NCBI RefSeq assembly: GCF_003268005.1
Contig: NZ_CP014213.1
Coordinates: forward strand, 2,563,501 to 2,627,500
From: Methanosphaera sp. BMS
Lineage (GTDB): Archaea; Methanobacteriota; Methanobacteria; Methanobacteriales; Methanobacteriaceae
Length of the DNA stretch: 64,000 nucleotides
Direction of reading: 5' to 3'
Shown: piece by piece, positions 62,271 through 64,000 of the stretch
Position numbering within the stretch: position 1 is the first letter of the stretch
Layout: each line of letters starts with the position of its first letter
Made by a program: the position numbers and the translations under genes
Notes under the pieces: generated by a model
What the model saw: only the letters and a program-made list of their open reading frames with translations
Databases searched by the model: none
Told to the model about the DNA's origin: nothing

Positions 62271-62739
62271 ACTTCATTATTACTTTTTTTTATTCAATTT
62301 CTATTTGATTAATATATTTATTCTATTTAATCGTTCATAATCCATTTGCATTTCTAACATACTTATAGATGTTGATTTAATATCCTGATTTTAGACTCGA
62401 TACTCTCAATAAAATGCTTGATTTGATTATATTTAATATTTTTGTGTTTTTGTTTATTTTTTATTGGAAAAGATTGATTTTTTATTTTTTAGTATTTGTT
62501 GTGTTTTATAGTTAGTTTGTTTACTGTTTATTGGTGTTTGTTGTTGGTTTGTTTATTTTTGGTGGTGTGTTTTGGGTTGTTTTGTCGTATATTAATATAA
62601 TATGCGAACAAAAAATCATAGAAAAATGGAATATGATACAGGAAATAAAGTTGTAAAAAAATAGTCGTAGTTACTATATGAAATGTAGGTATATCCGTAT
62701 CCTTATCTGTTAACTATTGTTTATTAAATGAATTGGAGG
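62271..62739. other. Accessory-zone non-coding DNA with a C-poor G/T-rich tract
   Basis: About 470 bp without a long gene. Roughly 62437-62585 is nearly free of C on the plus strand and made of T and G. A short open frame of 20 codons begins ATGCGAACAAAAAATCAT near 62602, after a TATTAATATA palindrome. I cannot show it is a gene; it could be the truncated start of a lost one. Confidence 0.4.
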
Positions 62740-62835
62740 TTAACATTTAATAACTTTGTATAAAAGAATTATTTCTCTTATTATTTCAAATATTAGTAAA
62801 ATGATTACTAAAACCTGATAAATGACGGATAGCAT
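62740..62835 (-). CDS. 31-residue hydrophobic membrane peptide (type I toxin-like)
   Basis: ATG at 62835 is preceded, 5 nt away, by AAAGGAGGTG, one of the best Shine-Dalgarno sequences in the window. The 31 codons begin MLSVIYQVLVIILLIFEI, a single transmembrane helix, then a short charged end REIILLYKVIKC and stop. The size, hydrophobicity and strong ribosome site recall type I toxin and holin-like peptides. The leader can pair with the start region (see the inverted repeats). Function not proven; an AT-rich random frame is the alternative, but the ribosome site argues against chance. Confidence 0.62.
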   Translation of the reverse strand: MLSVIYQVLVIILLIFEIIREIILLYKVIKC

Positions 62836-63100
62836 ATTTTCACCTCCTTTAATAGTAAATAGTGTTTGAAAGATAATTTAAGTGAGTAATTATCAATCAA
62901 GCAAAAAGAGGATCTTCATCTATACCTACAAGTATAATGTCTATAAAAAATAATATAAAAGATTTGTTAAAATTGAAAAATATCTTTAAAATGTGATTTA
63001 TTAGAAAAACGAGTACATACTTTTAAATGCTATGTTATAAGAATCTATAAATAGATTCTAACATAGACATTCCACTTAATTACTATGCTTCCGTCATTTA
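62818..63100. repeat. Long-range inverted repeat over the small peptide start
   Basis: Minus-strand AUGCUAUCCGUCAUUUA at the peptide start (62835 down to about 62819) matches plus-strand ATGCTTCCGTCATTTA at 63085-63100, with a single-base indel. On a minus-strand RNA that starts upstream of 63100, the two arms are complementary and would sequester the start codon. Confidence 0.6.
63030..63066. repeat. Near-perfect inverted repeat (hairpin)
   Basis: CTATGTTA pairs with TAACATAG (8 bp) and GAATCT with AGATTC (6 bp), with a 3-nt bulge and a 6-nt loop. It lies in the leader of the small peptide and could be an RNA hairpin, terminator or protein-binding dyad. Confidence 0.6.
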
Positions 63101-63185
63101 CTGAAAGTCATTAGTATGGTTAATATTATCTAATTTATTAATATATATACTTATCTCAAATAAATTCATCAAATAAAAATAATAA

Positions 63186-63383
63186 AAAAATACCACATGC
63201 TATTCGGAAAATCTAAAACCACACAACCTACGACACACATTTGCAATAGAAGCACTAAAAAACAATGAAATAAACTACGTAAAAGAATTCCTAGGGCATG
63301 AAAATATAGCAACAACACAGATATATACTAATTTAAAAGAAAAAGATGTAATTGTCAGATTTAAAAAATTAGAAACAATATAA
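63186..63383 (+). pseudogene. Tyrosine recombinase remnant (C-terminal catalytic part)
   Basis: An open frame of 65 codons from just after a TAA reads PHNLRHTF (second catalytic Arg), FLGHENIATTQIYTNL (LGH His and nucleophile Tyr) and ends at TAA 63383. The N-terminal half and the first catalytic Arg are absent, as is a start codon and ribosome site. It is the tail of a XerC/XerD/phage-integrase-type enzyme, left by deletion of a mobile element or a recombination module. Confidence 0.85.
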
Positions 63384-63525: not shown

Positions 63526-64000
63526 TTATGATTTTACAACAGTCATCGTAGTATTATCTGTTAATTTTTCATAACCTGAGGCTGTAAATACAGCTTCAAT
63601 GTTGTAAGTTCCTGCTTTGAATGATTCTGGTATGGTGTAGTCTACACTTACCTCACCATTAGCATTTACCTTAGCATAGATTACTTTTCCATTTTCATCT
63701 TTAACGGTTTTACCGTTAATTTTAAAGACAATTTTACCGGTGGTGATTGCTTTGTCACCAATTGCTACTTTAGCCTTAAGTGTTACTGTGCTTCCTGTTT
63801 GTACGTCACTTGTTATTGGTGTTATGGTGATTTTTGCTTCAGGTGCTGTGACAGTTGTAGTGATTGTTGTGGTTTCTTTGTTGTATTTGCTTGTTCCAGT
63901 GTATACTGCTGTAATGTTAATGTCTTGTCCGCCAAGGTTTTCCGGTACAGTGTATTGAGCGGTTGCTACTCCGTCAACTACTTTGGCATATACTACTTTA
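63526..64000 (-). CDS. Adhesin-like surface protein with Ig-like repeats, C-terminal fragment
   Basis: The minus strand is open from the window edge to a TAA at 63526-63528. About 157 residues cover Ig-like beta domains with recurring segments such as GKIVFKINGKTVKDENGKVIYAKV, ending TVVKS. The preceding copy has VVYAKVVDGVATAQYTVPENL, so the domains repeat with the same order. This is the pattern of the very large adhesin-like proteins of gut methanogens, which display repeats outside the pseudomurein wall. The N-terminus lies beyond the window. No C-terminal anchor is seen. Confidence 0.78.
   Translation of the reverse strand, partial: KVVYAKVVDGVATAQYTVPENLGGQDINITAVYTGTSKYNKETTTITTTVTAPEAKITITPITSDVQTGSTVTLKAKVAIGDKAITTGKIVFKINGKTVKDENGKVIYAKVNANGEVSVDYTIPESFKAGTYNIEAVFTASGYEKLTDNTTMTVVKS

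Follow-up and report, generated by a model that had tools for sequence, protein, structure and literature searches.

Peptide frame and putative small RNA at the locus

The window, a 64,000-nucleotide stretch of the Methanosphaera sp. BMS genome, carries on its minus strand a 31-codon open reading frame (ORF; 62835-62740) with AAAGGAGGTG five nucleotides 5′ of its ATG. A preliminary description of this DNA had singled out the frame, a single hydrophobic helix encoded by it, an imperfect inverted repeat over the start codon, a second hairpin, and a recombinase remnant and adhesin gene alongside, and all of these are present. The repeat pairs TAAATGACGG-AAGCAT (63100-63085) with ATGCTATCCGTCATTTA (62835-62819) through 16 pairs with one bulged base. 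The second hairpin is wider than first noted, the recombinase remnant matches an integrase family, and the neighboring open frame with repeats (63526-63999) is adhesin-like as read from its sequence. The predicted messenger extends past the 3′ limit (62740) of the region first described. The features are listed below.

63200-63382, plus strand: C-terminal remnant of a tyrosine integrase, divergent from the small RNA (PF00589, Phage_integrase, E 7e-11)
63141-63155, minus strand: TATA-like promoter element of the small RNA, GATAAGTATATATAT (ATATATA core invariant in 18 of 18 aligned small RNA units)
63020-63125, minus strand: small RNA, putative antitoxin, ~105 nt with two hairpins and predicted 5′ and 3′ ends (covariance-model match 63020-63155, 127.5 bits; stem covariation)
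63081-63119, minus strand: small RNA hairpin 1, with the antisense element as its apical loop (folding, covariation)
63085-63100, minus strand: antisense element (site 1), TAAATGACGGAAGCAT, complementary to the AUG and codons 2-6 (duplex energies, permutation)
63073-63079, minus strand: small RNA linker TTAAGTG (site 2), complementary to the 5′-UTR hairpin loop (permutation)
63026-63071, minus strand: small RNA hairpin 2, followed by a terminator-like T-run at 63009-63005 (folding, covariation)
62655-62930, minus strand: predicted peptide messenger, ~275 nt, its 5′ end placed at the start of the conserved element (conserved element, RNAfold)
62908-62930, minus strand: 5′ element, TGTAGGTATAGATGAAGATCCTC, long-distance partner of the 3′ element; its CCTC alternatively pairs with the Shine-Dalgarno sequence (RNAfold, P ~1.00; RNAalifold)
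62866-62900, minus strand: 5′-UTR hairpin; its apical loop, CACTTAA (62884-62878), is the predicted site for the small RNA linker (contact 2 analysis)
62841-62847, minus strand: Shine-Dalgarno sequence (SD) GGAGGTG (sequence; an SD in nearly all copies)
62740-62835, minus strand: ORF of 31 aa, MLSVIYQVLVIILLIFEIIREIILLYKVIKC, hydrophobic amphipathic helix, putative toxin (profile and pN/pS)
62735-62741, minus strand: anti-SD AACCTCC straight after the stop (81.7% of cells paired in 10 copies; P up to 0.75 in the window copy)
62684-62704, minus strand: 3′ element, AAGGATACGGATATACCTACA, partner of the 5′ element (RNAfold; compensatory change in G032)
62655-62677, minus strand: terminator-like hairpin ATAGT..ACTAT, then seven T (sequence, window copy)

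The minus-strand features make up a conserved module of ~450 bp, in which a putative two-hairpin small RNA (~105 nt) and a messenger for the peptide (~275 nt) are encoded on the same strand. Its order on the one strand, 5′ to 3′, is TATA box, small RNA, T-run, A+T-rich spacer, 5′ element, 5′-UTR hairpin, SD, ORF, anti-SD and 3′ element. About 13 copies occur in the genus Methanosphaera, and one more belongs to another genus of the Methanobacteriaceae (G032). The BMS genome has three peptide copies, at 349 kb, 520 kb and 2626 kb (the window), and the peptide with its leader is also present in six other genomes of the genus. Because 150 genomes of the order yielded no further carriers, we consider the distribution patchy. 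The preliminary description had suggested searching for homologues of the peptide and of the repeat arms with conserved pairing; frame, inverted repeat and both hairpins recur in ~13 loci and the arms covary, more than chance would give. Weak peptide-profile matches in G026, G081 and G159 were taken as chance, as were pattern matches in bacterial genomes.

Across the modules, the peptide has 30-32 residues, mostly 30-31 (32 in G032), and the consensus MxSxxYQVLTxILLLLEIIREIISLYKxxKE. Mean hydrophobicity is positive, and the C-terminal half is amphipathic with a polar stripe, one helical face holding polar residues 17, 20, 21, 24, 27 and 31. The peptide is under purifying selection: pN/pS is 0.49 over codons 8-30, with pN below pS in 36 of 36 pairs, and the looser codons 2-7 give 0.72. 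We found no credible match in Pfam, NCBIfam, PADLOC, PHROGs or PDB sequences, and family-model searches revealed no sequence similarity to known type I toxin families (Hok, TisB, TxpA, Fst, AapA and others). One copy (L047, G004 C48) has a divergent 3′ part, with a frame of 60 aa and no 3′ long-distance element, and yet keeps the small RNA match. A hairpin inside the ORF (window 62761-62782, minus strand, AATAAGAGAAATAATTCTTTTA) is preserved by compensatory changes between copies (columns 163-176 and 164-175 of mRNA alignment A3), so its codons may face both RNA and protein constraint.

The stems of the small RNA covary. Counting a named structure recovered both of them: double changes filled 24 cells, compared to 8.1 ± 2.3 after shuffling (0 of 500 shuffles as high), and sliding the alignment destroys the pairing. 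RNAalifold on the default alignment gave only the tip of hairpin 2, since bulges shift the arms. No Rfam covariance model, antitoxin RNAs included, matched the small RNA up to E = 1.

Predicted pairing between the small RNA and the messenger

The 63100-63085 arm of the inverted repeat is the apical loop of small RNA hairpin 1, facing the start codon and codons 2-6. In each intact copy, this loop complements the first codons of its own ORF (contact 1). The loops differ nearly throughout (TAAATGACGGA, TGATAACGGAA, TAGGTGGG, AACGGTAGGA, GTAGTAGAAGT, TACGTGGTAGA, TATGATGGGAA, GATAGTAGAGA and TACAGTAAGGAT), and each is matched by its own ORF start. Among ten non-redundant modules, duplex energy averaged -28.8 kcal/mol for self pairs versus -17.2 kcal/mol for cross pairs, and the longest exact run was 10.3 versus 5.2 nt; sums as extreme as those observed did not arise in any of 100,000 permutations. 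Common descent alone, with no coupling between loop and ORF, would not leave loops matched in this way.

A best-complement search over the whole messenger brought out a second contact. Here, the linker between the two small RNA hairpins complements the 5′-UTR with 5 to 11 nt exact, and the target lies within the apical loop of the UTR hairpin in 13 of 13 modules. Self pairs again exceed cross pairs (7.9 versus 5.4 nt and -11.9 versus -6.5 kcal/mol in nine non-redundant modules), with 4 (run) and 1 (energy) of 100,000 permutations as extreme. Sites 1 and 2 are antiparallel and collinear, so a single small RNA might hold the messenger to either side of the ribosome site. We consider it almost certain that the leader RNA regulates the peptide through RNA-RNA pairing.

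The messenger is also predicted to fold end to end. The conserved 5′ element sits 93-100 nt before the ATG in nearly all copies, and its complement, the 3′ element TATACCTACA, lies ~147 nt after it. RNAfold closes the two with P ~1.00 in 9 of 12 mRNAs and predicts the SD to be paired (P 0.43-0.99), but pairing of the anti-SD after the stop is absent from the prediction for some copies. The whole mRNA structure is 87% paired, compared to 39-57% when slid. G032 keeps the long-distance pair by an A-U to G-C change (TGTGGGTATA with TATACCCACA), although covariation within the mRNA alone does not exceed shuffles, the long-distance helix varying too little. RNAalifold offers an alternative fold in which the CCTC of the 5′ element pairs with the SD. 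In cofolding, which ignores pseudoknots and kissing loops, small RNA binding is predicted to gain more energy on the 3′-truncated than on the full-length mRNA in 9 of 9 modules, and with one full-length mRNA there was no gain. We looked for a clear TATA box at a fixed distance from the messenger and found none, so the messenger could derive by processing from a longer transcript.

Stand-alone small RNAs and the genomic setting

Nine small RNA units occur without a peptide, two in the BMS genome (519.65 kb and 1866 kb) and seven in G006, and most keep the TATA box and stems. In G006 C129, two tandem stand-alone units precede a complete module. Tandem units ~180 bp apart, with differing loops and their own TATA boxes, are seen in G006 on C129 (L112:11601-12094), C120 (L111:9844-10164) and C35 (L117:175-496); some tandem units in this genome have no peptide gene at all and form small arrays of orphan antitoxin-like RNAs. 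The orphan loops include CAGTAAAACGACGGAAAGC, and some of the orphan loops fit toxins encoded elsewhere. The 519 kb orphan pairs with the window peptide start at -28.8 kcal/mol, compared to -31.4 kcal/mol for the cognate, and its linker is identical. Additionally, in the G001 C88 copy the frame is interrupted by a stop at codon 7 and the SD is damaged, with the small RNA intact. Loss of the toxin with retention of the antitoxin, as in the orphans and G001 C88, is the trace that a toxin-antitoxin history would be expected to leave. A weakly matching, degenerate small RNA-like remnant (46 bits; L065:1501-1636, G013 C39:10048-10183) lies near an adhesin-like gene in a genome in which the peptide was not found.

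The surroundings bear out the mobile-element setting that had been suggested for the locus. Integrase fragments diverge from the small RNA at four loci (the window, 520 kb, G006 C120 and G006 C129), and one copy resides on plasmid pNP174 of Methanosphaera sp. ISO3-F5 (G007 C2; 174,118 bp), in an unannotated gap at 87376-87776. An MNT-type nucleotidyltransferase is encoded within several kb of the 520 kb locus, and adhesin-like genes, as read from their ORFs, flank several copies. Around an orphan small RNA pair and integrase fragment in G006 C120 (L111:7899-12720), we observed ParE, Zeta toxin and Bro-N, a mixture of type II toxin-antitoxin and phage-related genes. We also considered viral carriage and rejected it: IMG/VR and phage records held no related copy, and two viral pattern matches (L109 and L110) had no module around the pattern and no match to the small RNA model.

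Downstream of the window messenger lies a near-palindromic 32-mer, TTTGTTCGCATATTATATTAATATACGACAAA (62612-62581, minus strand). It has three sites in the BMS genome (the window, 520 kb and 1707 kb) and one in G006 C129, and three of the four adjoin a module. It is possibly an integrase core site, an idea for which support did not extend beyond a few loci. Past the palindrome, at 62400-62580, runs a long tract that is A/C-rich on the minus strand (T/G-rich on the plus), and tracts like it are seen after the copies at 520 kb and on G006 C129.

A type I-like model and its alternatives

We consider it probable that the module represents a type I-like toxin-antitoxin family of archaea through which mobile elements are maintained. 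In its folded state, the messenger would have paired ends and a hidden ribosome site, leaving the primary transcript largely inert. Upstream on the same strand, the small RNA would be made from its own promoter and would meet the messenger at two places: its linker would touch the loop of the 5′-UTR hairpin, and its hairpin 1 loop would block initiation by pairing with the AUG and codons 2-6. If the element were lost, the supply of small RNA would stop, the messenger, presumably processed at its 3′ end, would be translated, and the peptide would harm the membrane. The element would be kept because of this harm. The comparative evidence, in the form of module copies and covarying contacts, strongly supports the type I toxin-like idea of the preliminary description. 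The plus-strand antisense RNA for which it proposed to look is not needed, because the putative antitoxin lies on the same strand as the peptide.

Some of this evidence could also be accommodated by control in cis only, in which a single transcript carries small RNA and peptide frame, and translation is switched by the leader folding back onto the start codon. This is close to the self-sequestering leader first proposed, of which the complementarity to the start stands and the cis mechanism is probably wrong. The two parts are adjacent on one strand, the messenger is without a strong separate promoter, and intramolecular pairing would yield equal covariation. However, the nine peptide-less units, some in tandem and most with TATA box and hairpins, speak against a leader bound to its ORF, as does the poly-T after hairpin 2. 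The long-distance pairing, moreover, begins at the conserved 5′ element well past the small RNA, suggesting that the messenger has its 5′ end there. Because it has its own TATA box, two hairpins, a poly-T run and tandem stand-alone copies lacking the peptide, we read the leader as an autonomous gene, probably a separate small RNA unit rather than a mere cis 5′-UTR. That its RNA acts separately and in trans appears highly probable, and control in cis only is unlikely.

The peptide might instead be RNA-controlled and non-toxic, serving as a regulator, signaling peptide or stress modulator. Membrane peptides of 20-40 residues include non-toxic regulators, and toxicity here is predicted. Such a role sits poorly with the predicted multilayer silencing and with the decay of the peptide while the small RNA persists (G001 C88), and a toxin would better account for the patchy distribution and for carriage on a plasmid. 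We regard a harmless peptide as improbable and a toxic one as highly probable. A mobile repeat or structured DNA element (MITE-like or integrase-bound, for instance) with an incidental ORF would explain why dispersed copies adjoin integrase remnants and why the palindrome is common to the downstream side of three copies, but not the purifying selection on the peptide, the distant segments that covary in register with the start codon, or the SD in nearly all copies. This explanation is very improbable.

The type I-like model has several bacterial counterparts. TisB bears a charged stripe, which the polar residues on one helical face of our peptide resemble, and Orz/Zor paralogues are discriminated by sequence. 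In the Escherichia coli systems tisB/IstR-1 and zorO/OrzO, 29-residue membrane peptides are controlled by nearby, non-overlapping small RNAs of limited complementarity, and the primary zorO mRNA has a masked ribosome binding site (PMC8309996). The module shares with them the small membrane peptide and the nearby, non-overlapping small RNA. IstR-1 and OrzO act on the standby or EAP region, which precedes the ribosome binding site, whereas the main site here would be the AUG and codons 2-6, with an additional site in the UTR loop. The module also differs in that the antitoxin RNA lies upstream on the same strand, in its domain, Archaea, and in having no sequence similarity that we could find.

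In aapA/IsoA of Helicobacter pylori and in hok/Sok, the messenger ends pair over long range and mask the SD, an alternative anti-SD near the 5′ end could act during transcription, and several diverged chromosomal copies exist; metastable anti-SD hairpins are reported for aapA3 (PMC6733600). Our module resembles these systems in its predicted end-to-end pairing, its diverged copies, the predicted stronger binding of the small RNA to 3′-truncated mRNA and the alternative CCTC-SD pairing, which recalls the aapA3 hairpins. Unlike the cis-overlapping IsoA and Sok, its small RNA gene has no overlap with the messenger, and 3′ processing is assumed. Fst/RNAII of pAD1 combines a plasmid-borne small membrane peptide with an antisense RNA that has separated complementary segments and hides the start codon (PMC8309996). 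These traits have parallels here, although the Fst/RNAII genes are convergent with shared repeats and terminator and ours are in tandem on one strand. The module thus appears to work like a bacterial type I system with a non-overlapping small RNA (tisB/IstR-1, zorO/OrzO) to which the long-distance lock of hok/aapA has been added.

In haloarchaeal CreTA, CreT is an RNA toxin repressed at transcription together with CRISPR-Cas. That system shares with ours an RNA-based antitoxin in archaea and sequence-specific base-pairing, but the putative toxin here is a peptide and the pairing is with its mRNA.

As in type I systems, the predicted toxin is a small (<60 aa), hydrophobic, helical peptide, and the putative RNA antitoxin is complementary to the toxin mRNA, through two covarying sites by which repression is predicted. 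However, the type I antitoxin is described as encoded on the opposite strand (PMC12390103, a 2025 paper), and small RNA and ORF share a strand in all copies here. With toxicity predicted and separate transcripts likewise deduced, we call the family type I-like and not a certified type I member. Until that paper's cyanobacterial case, the only phyla with known type I systems were Proteobacteria, Firmicutes and Tenericutes (PMC12390103, 2025), and we found no report of an archaeal one in the literature searched. More tentatively, and with some doubt, we suggest that this could be the first archaeal type I family, with a same-strand small RNA and two covarying loop contacts whose specificities diversify in step, and with tandem toxin-less small RNAs serving as an anti-addiction memory against toxins of plasmids and integrated elements.

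If confirmed, the family would extend RNA-controlled peptide toxins to the second prokaryotic domain, in methanogens of animal guts. Its hypervariable yet matched loops offer a natural set of about ten small RNA-mRNA pairs for probing recognition rules, and the module is a candidate plasmid-maintenance system for methanogens, in which genetic tools are scarce.
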